NCBI RefSeq assembly: GCF_000003605.2
Contig: NW_003111473.1
Location: 93,287 to 135,229 of the forward strand
Length of the DNA: 41,943 nucleotides
Reading direction: 5' to 3'
Origin: Saccoglossus kowalevskii
Taxonomy: Eukaryota > Hemichordata > Enteropneusta > Harrimaniidae
The position numbers were made by a program, and so were the translations under genes. Below the pieces are notes generated by a model, which was not told the DNA's origin, ran no database searches, and worked only from the letters and a program-made list of their open reading frames with translations. Positions 5,652 through 41,943 of the stretch are shown here, piece after piece. Numbering within the stretch: position 1 is the stretch's first letter; each line of letters opens with the position of its first letter.

Positions 5652-10332
<4,681 letters not shown>

Positions 10333-12499: not shown

Positions 12500-20818
<8,319 letters not shown>

Positions 20819-23985: not shown

Positions 23986-25803
23986 CCGTATTTATCCGGA
24001 TAAGAGCCCAGGGTCATGAACATGGAAAATTGCCAAAAAATGGAAATTCATGAAAATGGACAACAGAAATAAATGAACATTATGCAACATTGGAAGTAAA
24101 TAATAATTCATTGCTTATAATGTGACAAATGAACCAGAAATAATAAAAATCGACAGTGAGGAATCATTTGAATTAGGATTTTCTCGCCCACAAACACGGC
24201 AAATATGCTTGAACTCAGAATGAACCATAATGTTAGGGGTCAAACTGCATGAAATTATTTCTAGTTTTGACAAATACCAGATAACAGTCATACCAGATCA
24301 ATAATATTTACAAATTTACACAGTAAAAATTACGAAAGTTCATAGTTGTTTGAGAACATTTCAGGCACAAAATATTGGCTGTATATTTTTTTTTTTAAAT
24401 TACAATTTCAAGGCGAACAAGATATGCGATGGAATCCAAAACATATTAAAATTGTAATTGTAATTGTCGAAATTACTGTTTCTTATCATGCAGAGATACT
24501 TGGTCGGTTGAGTGTGAAAAAAAAATGAAGGGGTGTAACGCAAAGTAGTATTTATTAAGTAATTATTGATTATTTTTTATTCAAAATAACAAAATTCTGG
24601 GGCAGTAGATTATGAGTGAAAAGGGAGTCTGGATTGGGCACATGATCTGACAACACCGGACACATCCCATTCCATTAAACACTGTCCTTTGTTCAAATAT
24701 GACAAACATAAAATCTCATGGAGCATTGTTTCAGGTCGCTTGGGTTATGTCATAAGCAGTTTTTTTTAAAAAGCCCCATCTACACAACATTTAATTTCAT
24801 ACTTAGGTAGCACACGATCTAGTTATCATGTCTTCCAAAACTATGCGACGCAGTTACACCGTTGAACAAAAGCTAACAGCTATCGATTTTATAAGATCAG
24901 AAAATCTTAGTTTGCGTGCTGCCTCTATCAAGCTACATATTGACAGAAAGCGACTTCGTGAATGGGACAGAAAATACAACGAGCTGCTTCAGAACTCCGG
25001 TGGAAGTGACAAGAAACGGCGCAAGTTACACTGTGGTGGTATTCCTGCTAGTAAAGAGGTTGACAATGACGTCTTTGTGTTTCTTTGCAATGAACTGGCA
25101 GAGGGTCGCATTGTCACCAACTCCATGCTTCAGTCCTATGCTAGAGAAAGGGCACACCAACTGATGGTGGAGAATTTTAAAGGGTCAAATGGTTGGCTTA
25201 GAAGATGGAAGAAACGATTCAGTGTTGGTATACGAAAGGGTAAGTTTAGATTTTTATTATATGTTATAAAAAACCATGTCGTTAATTTTTTATGGCGTAA
25301 ATTTTAAGACTAAATTGTTTATTAATTGCCTATGTTAAATTTTATTACAGAAACAAATGACTCACAGGAACTCCCAGAAGATTACAAAAATGTGTTACAG
25401 GCATTTAGAACATCAGTTAATCATCTTCGCCGGGAAAATGATCACACTCTATACAACATCGGTAACATGGATGAAACTATGGTATGTTTCGATTCAGCAC
25501 CCACATCAACCAATAATATATGTGATGAAAAGAGTATACGCATAGCGTCAACTGGGGCAAAGAAAAAGGGGTTTACTTACTTACATATTATAAGCAATAA
25601 ATTATTTTTGTTATACTTCTAATGTTGCATGTTGTTCATTTATTTCTGTTGCATGTCTATTCCCCGGCACAGTTCGATCTGCGTGTTGTCAATTTTTGCG
25701 AATTTTCATTTTTTTTCTAGGGGATGTCTGGGCATAGGCCCACCCCTATTTTTTGGCAATTTTCCATGTTCAAGACCCTGGGCTCTTACCCAGATAAATA
25801 CGG
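23986..25803 (+). mobile_element. Pogo/Tigger/JRK-type DNA transposon with 56-bp inverted repeats
   Basis: The left end 23986-24041 (starting CCGTATTTATCCGGATAAG) and right end 25748-25803, read in reverse, agree at 53 of 56 positions. TA flanks both ends (23984-23985 and 25804-25805), the target duplication of Tc1/mariner-pogo elements. Between them lies a CENP-B/pogo-like transposase with one intron, cut off after the first catalytic Asp region. The element is 1818 bp and probably non-autonomous. Its right end is only 82 bases before the SETDB1 start codon, so it lies in the presumed first intron or promoter of that gene. Confidence 0.85.
24828..25622 (+). pseudogene. Truncated CENP-B/pogo-like transposase
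   Basis: Exon 24828-25239 joins in frame to 25351 onward (intron GT-AG, 111 bases). The protein starts MSSKTMRRSYTVEQKLTAID, a Psq-type helix-turn-helix. A second, CENP-B/Tc5-type DNA-binding helix region follows (SYARERAHQLMVENFKGS, then NGWLRRWKKRFSV). After the intron comes the start of the DDE superfamily endonuclease domain, with NMDETMVCFD carrying the first catalytic Asp and STGAKKKGFT. The frame then runs into non-homologous YLHIISNK and a stop at 25622, so the second and third acidic catalytic residues are missing. This indicates an internally deleted transposase that might still bind DNA. No frameshift is needed upstream of the truncation. Confidence 0.8.
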
Positions 25804-25885: not shown

Positions 25886-28800
25886 ATGGAGACTGAATAT
25901 GAATTCAAACTCTTTGACTCGGATACCCAACTTTCAAAGTTCATTGATGATGTTATGTGGGACCGGGGAAGACGTGAATTCTGTGAAGACGTTGGCAAGA
26001 TCAAGTCAGACCTCACAGATATTGAAGGTGAAATATTTGCATATTTTTCATTTTACCTGGTATTTCACTATCACAATGAATTACCGCTAGTGTACAACGC
26101 CAAAGGATCATACATCAACTTCAATAATACATCCTGGATACATCCTCTGTGATTGTCCATGCTCAGAAGATGTTGGTATCATGCTGTATTCTGATTGGTT
26201 AAAGACATTCTTGACCTATCAGGTCAAAAAACACCAAATTTGTATATACTTCCAGAGTCAGATAGTCATCAGTGTGATAAACACATAACAATCTAGATCT
26301 AGATTCTCTACAGGCAAGGTTGTAATAGTTATTCTGTGGTTTCAGATAAACAGCATGAAATTAATGGTATATTTGATGAAATAGATGGATTATTGGACCA
26401 GTACCGATGCAGTTTGGATAAACAGAAAAAAGAGTTAGAAGAAGTGTAAGTTGTGTGTAATTAATTACTCCAATTATTTCCAACTAAATAGTGTAACAAG
26501 TTATAATTTACCTTCAGCAATCATCCACAAATAACCATTCAGTTGTTTTTGTTCAAAGGAAAACTGTTGATGATGAGTCAGTTTATACATACAACTATGT
26601 AAGCAGTAGTCATGGCAACAGCATTGATACAAAAATGGGAGGTGCTGCTGAGGAAAAGAAAGAAGAGGATATTTACAAATATCACAGCTTTGATAACCAT
26701 GGCATTAAAAAACAGACAGTTGATGATAAATCTGTTGTATCCCTGGAAACAAACAAAGATTCTGAAATGGAGGTGATTGATTTGTCTATTGGTGATGATC
26801 ATAGTGACCCAGAAAAGCCACAAACTCCTGGAAGGCAGGAACAGAGTCGGTAAGTAATCCATATCCCTATTCTTGATCCAATATTATTTCTTTAATAGCT
26901 GGTCCTGAACTCTGCTGAACATTCTTCCTTTAGAAATTACCAGTACATGTATTTTAGATGTATCCTCATATGCATTTTTATGTATTTTGTACTTTTCATT
27001 ATTCAGTGGTAAGCCACCTCTAGCTGGAGGAATGAAATTACTTGGAAGGAGACGTAGTGATGAAGTGTGGTATGAAGGAACATTTCTTGAAGTTATCAAG
27101 GACCAAAAAGGCCAGGTAATAAATCTCATATATTTGGGTACAATAGTGTGTTTATATGTGTTCATGTTCTACTGTAACAACATCAATTACAAACATCTTG
27201 GTAAATGCTTGAATTTCAACTATTTCTATCTCAGCAAACAGACTAAATGATTGTTATTATATATGATGTAACATCAACTTTGTCTCTTGCAGGAGAAATA
27301 TAAAATAAAATATGATAAAAATGGTGGCAAATCTCTCCTGTCTGGTAAACACATTGCCTATGCTACTCATCCAAGGGCTGCAGACATCCGGGTGGGCAGT
27401 AGAATTGTTGGTAAGCAGACACTTTCATATTCATTCTTTGTTCCAGTGCATTTTCCAAGATGCAATTGAAGTAATCATGTTTGGCATCAACCGTAATTCT
27501 TGTTGTCTGCTGTTTTATGTGATATAGTAACTCTGTTGTGTTTTTATAGGTATATACTTAAATGAAGCTGACACCCATGATGAATGTCTGTATGCTGGCA
27601 TTGTAGCTGAGGTACCATTACCTGCCAATAATTACAGGTATATTTGTACAGAGGGATTGTGATGTAATGTTTTGACAAATCATGGCTTTGTAGGGTGCAT
27701 TACTGTAAATTTATTAATTATTCACAATATTTCTCTTTTTATTGATAAGTAAAATCATCTAAATTAAATCCACATGAACATGTAAAATAACAATATAATT
27801 TGTTGTTCCCTGTCAAATTTGTGAACCCAGTTATTATGCTTTAAAAGACCAAAATAGTGAAATTAAATGCCAGTGAATATTGGTGGTTTTACAGTATTGA
27901 CATTTGGTTTTATATTATCTATATGTCATCTGACTAATTTTAAGACCTTGTTTTAAGAATATTATTTGAATATTGTTCGTTTTAATATGAAAAGATTATC
28001 ACATGACAGATAGATTTGGCATGTCAGTTTAATTTACCAACTGGATTTTTGTGTATTCTTTGTTTAGATATCTCATCTTTTTTGACGATGGTTTCGCACA
28101 ATATATGGGGTTGAACAAACTTTATTCTGTATATCAACAAAGTAAGTAACATATTGTGTTTGTACTAAAATGTAGGTCGAATAGACAAGTTTGCAGTCTC
28201 TAGTTACTATGTTACTGAACACATCATCATCATCATGTTTGATGACATCAAGATACTTACAATCAATCATGATCATTGCATGCTTTTCTTCTCATACGAG
28301 ATGGCCCATTCTTCTATTTGTTGGATAAACATCGTCCAAGTTTCATTGATTTACAATTATGCAACTTTGTTGTTCACACATTTATTGAGATGCAAATTTA
28401 TTCTTATATCCCAACTTTTGTGTTTTTGAAAGAAAACTCTGAATATAAACATTAGCCTTGACGAACTGGGCCAAATATTCAACGCATGTGTCCACAATCC
28501 CTGGAATTGCACCATTGTATCATGGAAAATTTGAATGTCTTGCTCATTGTTCACTATATATATAAAAATTACCAGAACTTAAATAGTCCATCGTAATGTT
28601 TTCATAGATTGTTATTTTTGCTAGACAATTTTGCCTCAACATGTATGTAACTCAATGCACTATGCTTTCCAGGTAACAATGTATGGGAAGACATCCATCC
28701 AGATTCCAGAGAGTTTATCAAGGAGTACATGGAGCTATACCCGGAAAGGCCAATGGTGAAAGTCAAACCAGGACAGTGGATAAGAACAGAATGGAATGGA

Positions 28801-31800
28801 GAATGGTAAGAAATACACAGTAGGGTTCAGAAGTTTTTCTAGAAAAAAAAGGCAAGAGGGAGCACTGCAGTTCAGCGGCACCACCAAGTGGGGGAGATAG
28901 GGTTTTCCCTACCAGGGTGTGGAGTTTTTGAGAATTCTAAGTTAAAATGGAGCATTCTATGGCTTCCTTTGGGCCAAAATTACTATCAGACAGGTCACAG
29001 TTGAAGACTGTGGCTACATGTGATCCCTGGTCAATCAGAATTTTATGGTTGCCAGAGGATCTGCTCCCCAGGGTAAGGGGGCGCATGGCCATGGCATGAG
29101 GGCTTTGCGCCCCTGTTTCCTTGTTTAAAAAAATCTCTGGGGTTATCTGTCAATACTACATGTAACTCTGCTGCTTTGTTGCTCTCAATTGGTACAGCAT
29201 TGTGTTCTTTTTCCTGCAGGTGGAGAGCTAAAGTACTTGAAGTAGATGGTAGTTTGGTAAATATGCTCTTTGAGGTAGATCAGAGATCAGAATGGGTTTA
29301 TAGAGGATCTCCCAGATTAGAGACATTGTTCACTGAGTTGGTAAGTAGTTCTTAGTAGGTGTACGTATTATAGTACTTGACCACTCTATTTAGGTGGCCA
29401 TTTTGAATTGGCGTAGGAAATGTGAATCTGTGTATATTCACAAGATGGGATCTTAAGTATCAAATGCCGTAATGCCAGTAATCACCTCAATAGAGTCAGG
29501 GTTTGAATTTAAAAGTGCCTGTCCATTATACTGCTTGGAGAATAAAAGTACCTGTCCGATTTGATGATTAATTAAGACATACATGTTTTATTTAAAATTC
29601 AATTTTAATTATTGGCTCATTATCATTTCAAAATTCTGAAAGCAATATTCTTGATATTAACAACTTTGAATTACCACATTTGGTCACTTAGTGAAACTTG
29701 ATATCTTTATTCGTCTGTCCACAGGGACAAACAATTTTTACATTTACGTTACCTGCCCCAGCTAAAATCCGCCTGTCTGAAACAGGTGGACCACAGAGTT
29801 ATTGAGAAACGAACAAATCATAAACTTAAATTCCATCTGAAAGGTGTTCCAAAATGTCAATAATGTAGAAATCATTAATTAATGCTCACATACTGATTCT
29901 AGATTTATACTGATTCTCTGATGCATGCTGATTATTAGATCCATAGTGATCATCAGATGCNNNNNNNNNNNNNNNNNNNNNNNNNNNNNNNNNNNNNNNN
30001 NNNNNNNNNNGTCAGATCCATACTGATTCTCAGATCCATACTGATTCTCCGATGCATGCTGATTATTAGATCCATAGTGATTCTCAGATTTGTACTGATT
30101 CTTCATTATTGTTCATTTCAGCAACAAGCAGAAAAAGCCCGGTCATCTGATAAAGGTATTGCTCATGTACGTAGTCGTTCACATGCTGTTAAAAGTAAAG
30201 GTCCTTATGTAGAGTACACAAGAGTTACTGATTTGACAATTGGTAAGTTATACATAAATAATGCATGCACAGTATCACAAAATAATCACTCAATCATAAA
30301 CATTTCAATGCAATAAAAAGTATTCAAGCAAGATTTGGCTAAAAAAGCTTGCCATCATTGCAATTTTAGACATCAAATGTAAACAGAAAGATTTCTGTTA
30401 AGAATAATTGCAGGTGTGACATTTGAAAATATGTAATGTATGGATGCATTGCTGGACAATGAAAAGAAATCTGTAAGCTAATGATGTAATATATACCAAA
30501 TGAAAATACTGTGAATGTATTTGTGAAATGAAGTAACACAATCTCATGACCCTTAGATTTGTCAGCCACACCTCCACCTCCACAAACTCAATCAACAAAA
30601 GATAAGAAGTTAAAACAGACTGCTAGGAAATCAACGTCATTTGCAGCACCCAAACAGGTAACATTACTTGATTAATTATTCTACATACATGTGCTTATTC
30701 CAGGCTTACATGGTTCAATGCTATGCACTCTTAGAATCAGTCAAAATAAACACGTAACACATCAATGTTATTCATAATAACAATATATAATCCCCCAAAG
30801 TGCCTTATTAGATTTCAGTGTCAATTCTACTACTAGTAGTATACTACCTTGTGACTCTCAGCACTGGCTGGCATATAATCAACTCCTCATCTAATATGGC
30901 TCTGTGGGTCATTCATTAGAAAATATAACCTTATCATATTGGCATGATATTACTAATGACTGGTGTCAATTATGATATTATGGCATTATTGGTTCACTCA
31001 AGTCACCACATAATCACCAGCATATTGAAAACCTAGAGTTATCACATCTGTCATTCACTCATAGAAAGCTCAGTTCTTGTTGACTCACAGAATTTTAACA
31101 TTAGCTACAGAATTCATTTCTAAATGTATGAAGCCTCATTTCATCTGAAGGTTGCAAGAAAGAGTACAACCAGCTATAAGCCTTTGAATTATGATGAAAA
31201 AGATCCACTAGGTGGCAATACTCAATGGAAAGCTCCTTGGCTGACCCCCAAGATCGTGCCAAGAAGTAATACAACTAAAGGTAGGAATCTCAACATTAGT
31301 TTACTGTAAAACGAGCCTTAACCAAACACTGAAACCTGTCTTAACCCAAAACATGATATGTTGTAGACGGGTTACTGTAATACCTAAAATGCAATAACCA
31401 AGTTTACATTAATACACATAAATATTAGAACATTCCATTACTGTATTACAGGTGTGGTTCAGCAGACGCAGCAAAAGATGGACATAGCAAGTGTTCTTCA
31501 GTCTCGATTACAGTTGCAGCAAGATAACAATGATTCCTCTCAGCACACTCCTCAAGTATCTGATTTTAGTTATCTCTATGCCCAGCAGCAGTATAAAAAA
31601 GTGGAAATGAGAAAACGGTTCAGTAAGTGGAGTTTTCATCAATTCTCCTGGAAATCAAATCAAGGGAAATGTATATATAGCACAAAATACATGTCTGTTA
31701 CACTATCAACATTATCATTGTTGTCATGCGAATTTTAAATACCGTATTTGTTCTATTAGTAGCACATGCACTTATGTGAATTAATATATTAATGATTATG

Positions 31801-34800
31801 TACATCAAATGATTTTCTGGATTAATATGAACTTTTATGTATGATAGAAAATAAAGTTGAAAAATGAATGATCAGGTATAAACTAAGGTACATGTCATAA
31901 ATTTTATAAATTCCTCAAATGTTATTGTTTCACTGTTTATTTTTAGTAGTCAAATTGGCTGTAGTTGGGCTTTTCACCACCATTGTCAACTCTTGTCACC
32001 TTCCACAAAATATTAGTCCTATTTTAGTTCTGCTGTAATCATCACAGATATTAATAACAATTGTTAATTTTCGTTGAAAATCATATTTAAGCAAAAATTT
32101 ACACATTTAACCATGCATTAAAGTATGAGCAGTAACTAATCTGTCTATGTAAGGACAACCAATTCTGACTAATGAGTAATGTTTAATTTTGTTGCTTTAG
32201 TACCACATAGCTGTGCTCCTCAGTGTGTTGCAAGCAGTACACCTGATCCTGCCAGGTTGCATGGTCAGAACCCATACTTGAAGCCAGAGTTGTGTGGCTG
32301 GAGAAAAGAACTGGGAAAACAACGAGGAAGTGGAAAGAGGAGTGTATTCTATCGCACTCCTTGTGGGCGTAGTTTGCGTGACATAAAAGAAGTTGATCGT
32401 TATCTTCTGGAAACTGAGATACAGTATCTTACAATTGATATGTTCACGTTTGACCAGTTTGTGCATACGCATACACATATTCGTAACCCGAAACCTGTTG
32501 TGATGATTAATGACATCTCAGAGGGACAGGAACCAATCCCTGTATCTGTAAGTACAGTATAAAAACAATTTCAGTATATTTTTACTGTACACTAATCATC
32601 TCATCACACATATTTTTTTCGTTGTATGTATTGAATATAACTACCTGGTGCTTGAATCTCTGTGCAAAACAATCTGAAATCTCATTGTTTTCAGGAAACA
32701 AATTTGAATATATTTGAGTGTACATTGTAGTTTTTACAGTTTCTGTATTACACTCTTTAAAGTTGATGCATGTGCACTTAGAAATAGAAATAGTACTGCA
32801 CATGTATGAGAGTAGAGCAAAGTATTAAAAAATGAATACTATTTTAAATTGACCAGTTACCCATATTGTTGTTGTTCTCTAAAACCTCATCATATTATCC
32901 TATGTTTTAAAAAACAGTGACAATGTTTTTAATATTTGAAAATTTTTTCTCATAGAGCTTTTGTACTATAAACGTAAAGTTTTATCAAAAATGTGCCTGG
33001 TAACCTTTGTTTTTTATTATTGCTAATAGCTTATTATGGAATAATCTCAGAGTGTATTGAAAATCTATTAAAATTTTGGGGGAAAAAACTTCATCACGTA
33101 CTTATCAATTACAGTCTCACCATAATATCAGAAACTATTTTTTTTATCCTTCATTGTGTTGTTAATCTAAACAAGTATAAATCTAAATTGATACTATCTG
33201 TATTTCTCTATTAGTGTGTTAATGAAATTGACACCCAATATCCACGATTTGCCAAATACTCCTCGGAAAGAATTTGTGCAAGAGGAGTATCTATTAACAC
33301 AGATGAAGATTTTTTTATTACTTGTGACTGCACTGATGGCTGTCGTGTAAGTACTTTTTATTACATCGCCCATAGTGAAATGTATATAATATAAAATATC
33401 TGTCTTCATTGGTGTTTCCTGTGATTACTTGTATCCAGTTAGATATAAATATCAATTAGTGGTATTTAACAGTATAAAGCTAGTTTTATCGAAAGCAGTG
33501 TACAACAGTTGCAATGTGTTTCCATACATTTACTGAAATTCATGACTATTTACTGTACTTTAATATAGAGGTTATTCTACTGTGAACTATACATTGAACT
33601 TACTCACTTGAATCCAACAAAATACCATATTTGCCCTTAAAAGTACATCTCCAATAGAAGTACATATATTATTACAGTATGACTTATTGTCTTCTTTAGA
33701 AACACACCAGTAATGTACGTAAACAAGTGTGCTTTTAACCTTTTTCATCACAAAATCTCCCTGTTTATAGTCTGCACTTTTCTTCAGAAGATTGGAACAA
33801 AAAATTTTGTCTGTTGGCTCTAAAAGTAGCATTCATTTCCTGAAATATTGAAGAATATGAGAGAAAAGTACATAAAAATTTGGGCAAGAAGATCTGCGAG
33901 TGAAAAGGTTAAAGTCTCTACAAAATGGTCTAATTTGGATTAGCTGACAGGGGTCTTGATTTGTGTGATGTGCATGTTAAGTGATAATGCTCAGTTGACT
34001 TACCCTAGTATTGATACATTGTGTCTGTTGAGCACAAACACCTACATGTATCATAGTAGGGTGTATTCATCAATTATCGCATGCTATGTGACTTATGAAC
34101 CATTTGATTAAATTTGCTTTTTTCCATGTTGCTGAATAAAATAATAACAATTTATATTGTTTATAATTTATGAAATCAGGACAAGAGTAAATGCGCATGT
34201 CAGCAGCTTACAATCCAGGCAACCTTATCAACCAATAAAGCAGGAATAATAGACCCTGAAGCTGGATACGAGTACAGGAGTGTATATGACCAGATACCAT
34301 CTGGGTGAGACATATTTCTAGTTCTAGTGCAAGGCATAGCTTACTGTTGACCTTATGTGGAAATCAGTTTTAGAAACTAATGTGTAAGAGGCTATTTTCC
34401 AAGGTGTTTTAATTTGTGGAAACTGGTTTGTTTTGACTACAGTATTTATGAATGCAATCCACGGTGTAAATGCAATCACACCTGCTTCAACCGAGTAGCA
34501 CAGCACAAATTACAGTGTAGATTACAGGTTTTCAAAACTGAAAAAAGGTGAGTATAATATTACATCTGCTATTTCTACTTCACCTATTTGTGGATGTATG
34601 TAAAAGTGTTAGATTCATTTACTGAGTTGTGTGGTCAGGATTTGTGACAGTTTTTTAATTCAAAACAATGTCATTAGTCTGCAGTTACCTCATGCTATGT
34701 TTGCTGTTGTTGAACATGTTGTGTGCAGCAATGTTCCCTATCTAGTACATACATGTAATATAGGTCTTGAGACAATTATGTGACGTATTTCATGTATGAT

Positions 34801-37800
34801 ATGCAGGAGTATTCACATCTGTATGAATCAAGACTTATCATCACTATTCAAAGGTTTTAACAAACAGGCAATCAGATGAGAAGAGAAAATGATCAGAAAC
34901 ATTTGGATTGCTAAATGTAATTGGAAATTTAATGTTCAGTACATATTGTTTTTCACAAATTCAGACCATTGGTTATTAAGAGTTTGCATACAATTTTGAT
35001 TCACACCTGGTTTTATGTAAAAGTTTACTAATTACCGGTATTTGTGATTGAGAGATTGCTAGTAAATTTGTAGAAGATATTGATGTTCCCTCACTGACTT
35101 GAGTCCCAATATGTTACTTTCATGTCATGTGGTATGTTGTTCATATAAAGTAGCTACTAACCTAATATTGATTTATTCACTAACATGACAAATACTTTGT
35201 CTAGGGGTTGGGGTTTACGTTGTTTAGATGACATACCATTTGGTGCATTTGTGTGTACATATGCTGGGGAAGTACTCACAGAGGAGTTGGCAAATGAAGA
35301 TGGTAAGCGATATGGGGATGAGTATCTTGCTGAATTAGATCTCATAGGTAAGTGCTAACATTATTAATGAGAGATAAAGCTATGATATTATCATGAATTT
35401 ACACAACTTTGAAAAAAAAATGTTGAAAGTGTGAAGAAAATTCCCTTGCTTACAGTCATTATTTTACTTACCTACAGAGGTAGCTGAAAACAATAAGGAA
35501 GGTTATGAGAGTGATGTCAAAGACCCTGATGATATTACCTCATCTGATTCATCAGATTCTAGGTAAATATATTTATTCTTCTCGCTTTTATGAGTTAATC
35601 TCTTTCAAGTATTCACATAGAGAACTGTCGCTTAGAAGGGCAATAACAAATTTTGTTTATGAGATTCTCAGCGGTAATTGTCTGTGTAGCGTCAGGATTC
35701 AAGTATACTAAACCAGTTTGTGATAGCAATGGTTGTCTTATTTCTAACCTCTATATGTGACTGTGTACCCATGGTACTCGTCTTTTTTCTCAGCAGTGGA
35801 GATGACCCTCCACCTCCTTCTTCCAGTATATCATCTGACAGTGAAAGTGTTTCAGTGGTAACCTCATCTGCAGTGACTGTTGCAAGTACGGATGATGAGA
35901 TAGAGGAGTTGTCAAGGTATGTCATTGTTATGTCTGTGGTTGTTCTCTACTTTCTTTCCATTCTCTATTCTTGGTAAGGAATTTAACCGCTATATCTCAT
36001 GTATGATGCATGGAGTGCACCCTAATGTTGGAATGAACATTTTTTAATTGTCTCTGTCTCAAAACACAGCTGTTCTTGCAGCTTTCATGTACTCATATTT
36101 CAATCCTTAGAAAAGAATGCCCTCTAATAACATGCACGTGGTGAAGGACACAAAGTACTATACACTTACACAACATAAATGTCAATCTCCGTCTTCCACA
36201 GTCTTCACCCACATTTTCTTTTGTATGCTAGTTCTGGTAAAAAAGTTGGCAAGTTGCTTTTAAGAAGACAGTCGTCTGAGAAAACTGAGCAGTGGTAGGT
36301 ACACACTCACAGTCCTGATACACCAATGTTTCTAAAGTAAAACATGCACAGTGCAGTATTCACTAAAAAAAAATATAAACTGGTGACCTGTTTGCGTAGT
36401 TTTGTAGAATTGTCAAGTTGAGGATACTAGGAATGCTTACATACTTGATTTAGTACTATCCCATAGTTGTTGGTTTGTTGGTCTGTCTGTTTGTCTTAGT
36501 GTGCCTGTCGGAATGTATATTATCATATTCTATTTTCACCTTGCCTGTATCGTTGTCAATAAAACAAAAGGTTGTCGTCGTCTATCTTGTCCTAAAACAT
36601 TTTTTTTTTCTGTTACAACACCTCAAATTGTTTTATCCAAACTTTTATTAACCAGTTTGGGTTTCCAGGCAAGTTTGATTTTGATCATTTTTCAAAATTT
36701 CACTTAAAATTGTCGTCTTTTTTTTATATAACAATTTTTATCTGATATCTTCAAATTTTGAAATCTTTTTTGATCACTATAAAGTGTCGAAACCAAGCTC
36801 AATTTTGTTGTGCATAGCAAGTATAATTTTTTAAGATGTGGTTTAAAATTTGGCTGAAAATAAAACTTTTGTTAGATAGTTTTGTTGAGTAAAGAAAACA
36901 TGCCTTGTAAGTTTGTATCTATCCTGAATTCATATTTGTTATTCAATCTAAATTCTCGATGGAAAAGATTGTTGCACTTGTGTTATGGTATATCAAGAAC
37001 TTAAATTTAACATGCCTATGATACTATTAATATCAGTTCTACCTACTGGTAGATGTCTTTTTTAGAATGTTTAAATTTTTCCTAATTTGAGTCTCATATT
37101 CATGAAAACTGTTTATTTCGGTGACCTCACAATATATAATGTTTAGGTCCCTTTGAATATTAACCTATTAACTCAACAAACTAATATCATACTGCATGAA
37201 GCTTGGTCAATCTCTATAATATTTTATGCATATTAATTAAATAATTCAACAGTCCTTCAAATGTTAATAATAGTCTAAATATGTGCCTACACTATTGTTT
37301 TCACAATATCTTTTAATCCAAACTACTGCAAACTACTTTTTCTTGACAATAATAAATATCATATGTACCTTGGGCCTTTGCACTATCTGATTTATTCCTG
37401 TTTCTTCATTTTGAACAGGGCTATTGAAAGACCTAACAAAAAAAGCATCAACAATCATGACAAAAAACATCTTAGTGCTGAAAAAGACAAATTGGAAAAC
37501 ATAGAAGTCAAAGAAGATGTTTACATATTTCCCAAACCAAATGAAAATACTCTGCCATCTTCTGTTGATCGAAAAGATGGAAGCTGTCAATCAAAAGTCA
37601 ACATACAAATAAAGAAGGATAGTATTGAAACAGATTCTGCCAGTGACTCTGATATTAAACCACCAACTGGTGAGGTTCCTGATGGACTAGACATCAAAGA
37701 TAAAAAATATCTTGAAAATTCACTCACAGCATTCTTTGAGGGTAATTCTGGCCCATCAGATGTTGAAAAAACCCCTGATGCTAAAAAAGTTAATTTCAAA

Positions 37801-38038
37801 ACAAATATGCCATGCAAGAAATCTTCCTCAGGTGGTAGTAATGCAGCTGAAGAAGCCATGGACACCACAGAAACTTCAGTGATTGAACCAATGGACACCA
37901 CATCACAGAAATCAACGATACCAGTCAAATTGAGTGATTCACTTGAAGTTGTCACCAAGGAGAAATCAACGACCATGAAAGGTGAAAGTAATTCTGAGTG
38001 TATAGATTTAACCATAAATGATGATGATAAAGGTGCGA
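25886..38038 (+). CDS. setdb1: SETDB1 histone-lysine N-methyltransferase (3' partial)
   Basis: Coding exons: 25886-26027, 26346-26445, 26559-26849, 27007-27115, 27293-27410, 27550-27637, 28068-28141, 28673-28805, 29220-29340, 30122-30242, 30557-30657, 31151-31280, 31452-31622, 32201-32547, 33215-33346, 34180-34304, 34443-34547, 35205-35347, 35478-35562, 35794-35916, 36232-36294 and 37419-38038. All join in frame, giving 1147 codons with no stop. Order: coiled-coil N-terminus, tudor domains (about 178-392), H3-like tandem motif (452-477), MBD (about 597-655), nine-Cys pre-SET (683-802), N-terminal SET half ([16 protein letters not shown]), then a Ser/acidic insertion. The enzyme trimethylates H3K9 in heterochromatin. 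ATG 25886 follows an in-frame TAG that overlaps a splice acceptor (tttgtttag), implying a non-coding exon upstream. The final donor (GCGA then GTAAGT) is open, and the NHSC and post-SET exons lie beyond the window or were missed. Confidence 0.93.
27007..28141 (+). other. SETDB1 first tudor domain region (exons 4-7)
   Basis: Exons 4-7 encode [20 protein letters not shown], then [22 protein letters not shown], and [12 protein letters not shown]. These match the SETDB1 tudor block, including the aromatic/acidic FFDDG strand. In the human protein the tudor domains read H3 tails carrying K9 methyl plus K14 acetyl; that function is carried over from the family. Confidence 0.85.
28673..29340 (+). 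other. SETDB1 second tudor domain region (exons 8-9)
   Basis: Encodes [40 protein letters not shown] and [12 protein letters not shown], which match the distal tudor module of SETDB1 (family knowledge). The exon junction falls inside the double tryptophan. Confidence 0.85.
28830..29110. repeat. GC-richer repeat-like segment in SETDB1 intron 8
   Basis: Composition shifts abruptly (ggcaagagggagcac, ccaagtgggggagat) and the block ends with a GGGGCGC ... GCGCCCC stem around 29068-29104. No coding frame. Probably a transposon remnant; the family is not recognised. Confidence 0.35.
29898..30106. repeat. 18-bp minisatellite interrupted by assembly gap
   Basis: Units of the form GATCCATACTGATTCTCA repeat with an 18-base period on both sides of a 50-N gap (29961-30010), ending 15 bases before SETDB1 exon 10. 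The period is a multiple of three, so it creates spurious open frames. The real copy number is hidden by the gap. Confidence 0.85.
30613..31183 (+). other. Histone H3 tail-like tandem motif in SETDB1 (exons 11/12)
   Basis: Residues 452-464 read [13 protein letters not shown] (30613-30651) and residues 465-477 read [13 protein letters not shown] (30652-30657 joined to 31151-31183). The units are 13 residues each and directly adjacent across the exon 11/12 junction. KQTARKST is identical to histone H3 residues 4-11, placing Lys457 at the H3K9 position; Lys470 is the equivalent in unit 2. Human SETDB1, from memory, has a single KQVAKKSTSF-like stretch here. The function is inferred, not shown. 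Confidence 0.8.
32201..32547 (+). other. SETDB1 methyl-CpG-binding-type (MBD) domain exon
   Basis: Single exon coding residues 567-682. [20 protein letters not shown] and [20 protein letters not shown] match the MBD fold of SETDB1. A CAPQC motif upstream corresponds to the HVCSYTC-type stretch of the vertebrate protein. Whether it binds methylated DNA cannot be judged from sequence. Confidence 0.85.
33215..34547 (+). other. SETDB1 pre-SET zinc cluster (exons 15-17)
   Basis: [12 protein letters not shown] leads into the nine zinc-cluster cysteines: CDC, DGC, KCAC, then YEC, RCKC and HTC. These are the ligands of the three-zinc pre-SET cluster. All nine are present, so the fold should be intact. 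Confidence 0.9.
35205..35562 (+). other. SETDB1 N-terminal half of bifurcated SET domain (exons 18-19)
   Basis: [20 protein letters not shown] provides the GWG cofactor-binding motif, followed by AGEVLTEE and [10 protein letters not shown]. The domain is then interrupted after NNKEGYESD by a Ser/Asp-rich insertion, as in vertebrate SETDB1. The catalytic NHSC half is not visible in the window. Confidence 0.9.
35794..38038 (+). other. SETDB1 SET-domain insertion (exons 20-22)
   Basis: Low-complexity Ser/acidic and Lys-rich sequence, including [18 protein letters not shown] and a 206-residue exon 22 (37419-38038). It ends with [10 protein letters not shown] (37999-38028), a SUMO-interaction-type motif. 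Exon 20 begins at a tandem CAGCAG acceptor, so 35794 or 35797 may be used. Confidence 0.8.
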
Positions 38039-41127: not shown

Positions 41128-41943
41128 AGGCCTTACTGCCTGGCTCTATTACACATACTTGAGCCCAACTGCCATTCAGACAGGTTCTATTTCACATACT
41201 TAGCCTTGCTGCCATGCAGAGAGGCTCTATTTCACATACTTGAGCCCAACTGCCATGCAGACAGACTCTATTTCACATACTTGAGCCCAACTGCCATGCA
41301 GACAGGCTCTATTTCACATACTTGGCCTTACTGCCTTTCAGACAGGCTCTATTTCACATACTTAGCTTACTGCCATGCAGACAGGTTCTATTTCACATAC
41401 TTAGCCTGACTGCCATGCAGACAAACTCTATTTCACATACTTGGCCTTACTGCCTTTCAGACAGGCTCTATTTCACATACTTAGCCTTACTGCCATGCAG
41501 ACAGGTTCTATTTCACATACTTAGCCTTGCTGCTATGCAGACAGGCTCTATTTCACATACTTGAGCCCAACTGCTATGCAGACAAACTCTATTTCACATA
41601 CTTGAGCCCAACTGCCATGCAGACAGACTCTATTTCACATACTTAGCCAAACTGCCATGCAGACAGACTCTATTTCACATACTTGAGCCTAACTGCCATG
41701 CAGACAGACTCTATTTCACATACTTAGCCAAACTGCCATGCAGACAGACTCTATTTCACATACTTGAGCCTAACTGCCATGCAGACAGGCTCTATTTCAC
41801 ATACTTGAGCCAAACTGCCATGCAGACAGACTCTATTTCACATACTTAGCCAAACTGCCATGTAGACAAGCTCTATTCCACATACTTGAGCCCAACTGCC
41901 ATGCAGACACACTCTATTTCACATACTTAGCCTTAATGTCACG
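41128..41943. repeat. ~41-bp minisatellite running off the window
   Basis: About 20 copies of a 39-42 bp unit built on CTGCCATGCAGACAG, CTCTATTTCACATACTT and GAGCCCAA or AGCCAAA. Two junction variants (TTGAGCCCAA and TTAGCC plus TTA or AAA) alternate, which suggests higher-order structure. The array continues past the right edge. Open frames in it are artefacts. Confidence 0.95.

Follow-up and report, generated by a model that had tools for sequence, protein, structure and literature searches.

Two tandem histone H3-like units in the linker between the Tudor domains and the MBD of a SETDB1-like gene

Automethylation is on record for several histone methyltransferases, namely SUV39H2, Clr4, G9a, and GLP, according to PMC9768651. 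Human SETDB1 is described in a review as automethylating K490 and K1162, two lysines whose surroundings fit the motif A(R/K)K(S/T) (PMC13108219, citing the bioRxiv preprint of Tang et al. 2025). As reported there, automethylation of K490 and K1162 leaves the catalytic activity of human SETDB1 unchanged, and it is required for HP1 binding and for the maintenance and spreading of H3K9me3 (PMC13108219). Two further sites of human SETDB1 have been studied as chromodomain ligands: the MPP8 chromodomain is reported to bind K1170me3 at 1.55 uM and K1178me3 only weakly (>50 uM; PMC7618375), so that not every such motif docks, and both sites are reported to bind CBX7 in vitro (PMC13108219). For the K16 site of ATF7IP, conservation has been reported among vertebrates, but not in flies.

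The window analysed here, a stretch of 41,943 nucleotides from Saccoglossus kowalevskii, carries a SETDB1-like gene on its + strand, whose 20 modelled exons (26559-38038) give a partial protein of 1065 aa, with GT..AG at all junctions (Table 1). The initial annotation numbered the two lysines of interest Lys457 and Lys470, which implies 81 further N-terminal residues compared to our partial model, where they are aa 376 and 389. Its assignment of the gene to SETDB1 is borne out by the order of the Pfam domains and by the match to the human triple Tudor domain. Over the first 782 residues, Pfam finds, in order, DUF5604, Tudor_5, Tudor_4, MBD, Pre-SET, and the N-terminal part of SET, and the closest PDB relative of the protein is the human SETDB1 triple Tudor structure (E 8e-61), with Drosophila eggless next. 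The triple Tudor domain is present and shares 104 of 197 aligned residues with human SETDB1, and the MBD (Pfam MBD E 6e-12, aa 508-571) lies between the Tudor and Pre-SET domains. Pre-SET and the N-terminal part of SET are followed by an insertion, and the C-terminal half of SET would fall where the contig, C557, reads N; this stretch (contig positions 135230-147734) starts one base past the end of the window. Motif scans of C557 43287-235229, the N stretch included, gave nothing convincing for the C-terminal half of SET or for the region of human K1162-K1178. In a protein search of the whole genome (572 Mb assembly), 15 of the 17 matches lie in this gene and the remaining two belong to different SET genes (C1729 and C2187), so that the assembly yielded no second SETDB1.

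The rest of the window holds other features. Just upstream of the SETDB1 exons, at 24807-25307 (+), there is a frame of 166 aa that contains Tc5-transposase and Brinker-type DNA-binding domains, which we take to be pogo/Tigger-like. Exon-like frames resembling cathepsin D-type aspartyl proteases are found in convergent orientation at 6898-10332 (+) and 12500-15287 (-), and the sole part of them that was tested, 9217-9432, matched Pfam Asp. Three tandem arrays were also found: a 40/81/122-bp unit array at the very end of the window (41142-41933), the short unit of which is present in ~20 copies; a perfect 12-bp array of 11.8 copies (17239-17380) directly after a 50-base N gap (17189-17238); and an 18-bp array (30012-30102) that adjoins a 50-base N gap (29961-30010) and ends ~20 bases before SETDB1 exon 8. 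Within the gene itself, VIDLS in exon 1 (26559-26849) and CIDLT in exon 20 (37419-38038), at both ends of the modelled protein, are each trailed by acidic residues and so resemble SUMO-interacting motifs.

In the linker between the triple Tudor domain and the MBD, the translated model contains two adjacent 13-residue H3-like units, as the initial annotation had claimed. Unit 1 starts with KQTARKST, an 8/8 match to residues 4-11 of H3 as encoded elsewhere in the genome, and unit 2 starts with KQVARKST, which differs from H3 by T6V. The core A(R/K)K(S/T), with Ala at -2 and Ser/Thr at +1, is present in both units, and the lysine that it surrounds occupies the position of H3K9 in each, again in agreement with the earlier claim (codons in Table 1). 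The linker carrying the units scores as disordered by charge-hydropathy. Exon 8 holds a third motif beginning A-x, at aa 333 of the partial model and upstream of both units, which is otherwise not H3-like, and no A-x-K-(S/T) motif is found in the sequenced part of the SET insertion (exon 20).

Table 1. Features of the SETDB1-like gene and its H3-like units, in positions of the window.
Feature	Position	Strand	Basis or remark
Exons 2-7, triple Tudor domain	27007..29340	+	TD3 H3K9me/K14ac site mostly conserved
Exon 8	30122-30242	+	
Exon 9, 101 nt	30557..30657	+	model
Unit 1, 13 residues	30613..30651	+	first 8 residues (30613-30636) identical to H3 4-11
Codon of the H3K9-like lysine of unit 1	30628..30630	+	aa 376 of partial model
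Unit 2 part a, KQ, final two codons of exon 9	30652..30657	+	translation of model
Phase-0 GT..AG intron splitting unit 2 between KQ and VARKST	30658..31150	+	sequence and model
Exon 10, 130 nt	31151..31280	+	model
Unit 2 part b, 11 residues opening exon 10	31151..31183	+	translation of model
Codon of the H3K9-like lysine of unit 2	31160..31162	+	aa 389 of partial model
Exon 12, MBD	32201..32547	+	model and Pfam
Exons 13-15, most of Pre-SET (start = end of exon 12)	33215..34547	+	model and Pfam
Exon 16, N-terminal part of bifurcated SET domain	35205..35347	+	model and Pfam
Exon 20, part of SET insertion	37419..38038	+	model

The likeness to H3 and the repetition were both compared with shuffled sequences. 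When the protein was compared with H3 1-40, the best 8-mer matched at 8/8, while none of 300 residue shuffles reached 8/8 and one reached 7/8; the analytic expectation is 3e-7 for the KQTARKST 8-mer and 7e-6 for any 8-mer of H3 1-40. An internal 8-mer repeat at 7/8 within 40 residues occurred in none of 200 shuffles, the best of which reached 6. A chance match to H3 is rejected on these counts, and the tandem H3 mimic is confirmed as a real observation beyond chance. A splicing artefact was rejected as well. Alternative acceptors just upstream of 31151, judged by eye, run into stops, and skipping either exon 9 or exon 10 alone shifts the frame, while skipping both together (231 nt) keeps it. 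Across the whole genome, in a search that misses intron-split copies, DNA encoding KQTARKST was found at 14 places, 11 of which are H3 reading frames, some of them truncated or degenerate. The other three are this gene, one KQTASKST, which was caught because a Ser codon also fits the DNA pattern, and a short unassigned frame; the last, on L007 near position 1501, is non-H3 DNA reading KQTARKST and then VIQRIENRF, either a chance match or a possible exon.

The codons of the units bear on the age of the pair. The two 13-residue units have eight residues in common (K, Q, A, R, K, S, T, and P), and in six of these eight pairs the codons differ; the serine pair, TCA versus AGT, is unconnected by any single silent change. 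The duplication is therefore not recent, with the amino acids held while silent sites changed. A repeat scan (seed 9, minimum 12) listed no DNA repeat of the units, and with six of the eight codon pairs differing, we reject a recent tandem duplication of the DNA. Judging from the codons, the peptide of both units looks selected, in a small sample of eight. Recent capture from an H3 gene is also rejected, the DNA of unit 1 being 4-7 of 23 bases off each of the six distinct H3 versions of the genome, and the units may have converged on H3 independently. The initial annotation had proposed that this lineage doubled the motif and brought it nearer to H3; as a recent event, such a doubling is disfavoured by the codons, and the difference from human SETDB1 may reflect either a gain here or a loss in vertebrates. 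A search for SETDB1 orthologues, made with 353 aa taken from behind the units, gave 37 pattern matches and 0 relatives in genome contigs, and 0 pattern matches in viral contigs.

We propose, with moderate confidence, that the tandem units act as H3K9-mimic substrate sites in a flexible SETDB1 linker, where they would be methylated and would dock chromodomains, a reading that draws on sequence and on analogy with human SETDB1. The precedent for automethylation and chromodomain docking, to which the initial annotation appealed, holds up in the review of human K490 and K1162 (PMC13108219). SETDB1 itself, if catalytically competent as we assume, or another H3K9 methyltransferase would methylate each ARK-S/T core at its lysine, and chromodomains of the HP1 or MPP8/CDY type would dock on the units so modified. 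Docking would tether the writer to chromatin that is already marked and so help the mark to spread. Since the two sites are 13 residues apart and each chromodomain buries ~six residues, there should be room for two chromodomains side by side, and doubling would therefore most plausibly add avidity, for example for an HP1 dimer. A bolder version, which we consider unlikely, is that the doubling makes SETDB1 a scaffold with two H3-tail-like sites, on which a single polypeptide could capture an HP1 dimer. Once automethylated, the enzyme itself would then stand in for two H3K9me3 nucleosomes, and it could seed heterochromatin, or bridge it, where the chromatin carries no prior mark.

The fit of the units to chromodomain readers is consistent with the proposed docking. 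The groove of Cbx3 is reported to hold Q-T-A-R-K-S of H3, with Ala at -2 strictly needed (PMC3325965). Unit 1 has all six of these residues (QTARKS) and unit 2 has V for T, and with Ala at -2, Arg at -1, and Ser at +1 both units fit the Cbx3 rule as far as the residues go. Candidate readers were found in a chromodomain scan of the genome, which gave 30 matches, three of which were compared with solved structures. One is closest to CBX3/CBX5/CBX1 and has an in-frame stop, perhaps a splice site, right after the compared part, and the other two are closest to CDY-like proteins, with MPP8 next. A fourth match is in frame with Pre-SET sequence and is also matched by SETDB1, as a SET relative; from this architecture, we take it to be SUV39H-like. 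Ten of the 30 matches are chromodomain fragments nearly identical to one another, with the sequence YVVEKVL.KRKRKG..EYF.KW or one much like it (L040, L042-L046, L052, L053, L055, and L057), and are perhaps transposon-borne. For the chromoshadow domain, the other half of HP1, PF01393 gave no match in the genome, with a silent control, and a typed query gave one match (E 0.4) that was unconvincing on translation, in searches that both miss exon-split genes. With no chromoshadow domain found in these searches, HP1 itself is a putative reader here. A search of the genome for the ATF7IP family found no member, and here too the control was silent.

Other functions of the units can be weighed against automethylation and docking. 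The 13-residue stretch is basic and the linker is scored as disordered, features that would also suit a patch serving mainly in nuclear localisation or nucleic-acid contact, or a kinase site, with the likeness to H3 inherited or incidental. Such a role seems unlikely to be the main one, because charge fails to explain either the 8/8 match to H3 or the 7/8 repetition, and the human counterpart is reported to be methylated (PMC13108219). It is also conceivable that one unit is vestigial, in that function is confined to the copy matching human K490 and its neighbour persists as a neutral remnant of an old duplication. For the corresponding part of human SETDB1, the review names K490 as the single automethylated site (PMC13108219), as a working single copy would predict, but both copies have kept their residues while their codons changed, which points to selection on each of them (n=8 residues, a small sample), and we hold a vestigial unit to be rather unlikely. 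Pseudosubstrate autoinhibition, in which the unmethylated units would occupy the SET pocket until methylated in the style of the Clr4 loop, is doubtful in our judgement and quite unlikely. Unit 1 reproduces the substrate core perfectly, and automethylation of K455/K472 in Clr4 provides a reported precedent (PMC9768651); however, the units lie in a distant linker outside the SET region, and human SETDB1 is reported to keep its catalytic activity when K490 and K1162 are automethylated (PMC13108219).

The initial annotation had also raised the possibility that the units bind the enzyme's own Tudor domains in cis. The human triple Tudor domain is reported to need K14ac and H3 G12-G13, where alanines disrupt binding (PMC5727127), and the Drosophila triple Tudor domain is reported to behave differently from the human one (PMC13108219). 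Neither Gly-Gly at +3/+4 nor an acetylatable Lys at +5 is found in the units, which have S-F-A and T-S-Y there. At the TD3/K14ac site, 10 of 11 human residues are identical (F296, G300, A302, F332, W358, D382, R384, E386, Y389, and R394), and I388 is replaced by V. TD2, which prefers K9me3, keeps Y268, Y277, and F297 and carries W275 -> C and Y301 -> F. In our view, the Tudor domains here probably retain their recognition of H3, but they would handle the mimic differently. That the methylated units bind in cis, a possibility favoured by the largely conserved TD3 and K14ac site, is very improbable, because both units lack the G12-G13-K14 needed by the human reader (PMC5727127), a rule of the human domain that is applied here by inference, and because TD2 is changed.

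Automethylation and chromodomain docking, the reading that we prefer, can be set beside the known systems, beginning with human SETDB1. Human numbering was taken from the Tudor alignment, in which 19 of 19 landmark residues fall at one offset and the aligned region ends near residue 401. Past this end, human K490 lies ~89 residues away and the lysines of the two units 66 and 79 residues away, so that K490 and the units of this gene share an A(R/K)K(S/T) core and a comparable spacing from the Tudor domains that precede them. The human core at K490 is, we assume, AKKST, with ARKST in the units of this gene, and we take the human sequence in the K490 region to be RKQVAKKSTSFRPG. Human K1170 and K1178 are H3K9-like too, but they lie far C-terminal of the linker, and the matching part of this gene would lie in the N stretch past the window. 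The letters at these two human sites are presumably ALKST and AIKST.

Among other proteins, G9a K185 and GLP K205 are reported as sites at which H3K9 methyltransferases methylate their own H3-like motif for chromodomain docking (PMC9768651, PMC3325965). The G9a peptide, KVHRARKTMSKP (PMC3325965), belongs to a different protein and is less H3-like outside ARK than unit 1. ATF7IP K16 is likewise an H3K9-like site reported to be read by MPP8, but it lies in a partner of SETDB1 and is methylated by G9a/GLP. The autoregulatory loop of Clr4 is another reported case of automethylation in an H3K9 methyltransferase (PMC9768651), but there the loop blocks the substrate pocket of the catalytic domain.

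If both units are methylated, this gene would provide a natural test of how many histone-mimic sites the read-write loop of a heterochromatin writer needs and of whether bivalent docking matters. It would also suggest an old evolutionary footing for the human K490 site, because an H3-like site is kept in another animal, similarly placed between the Tudor domains and the MBD. Among the literature matches listed, no title or abstract opening names a tandem pair in SETDB1. The linker of human SETDB1 has one reported motif, K490, whereas this gene has two, the first of which equals H3 4-11. Altogether, the mimic itself is already reported, at K490 and K1162 of human SETDB1, and its tandem, H3-perfect form is the new part.
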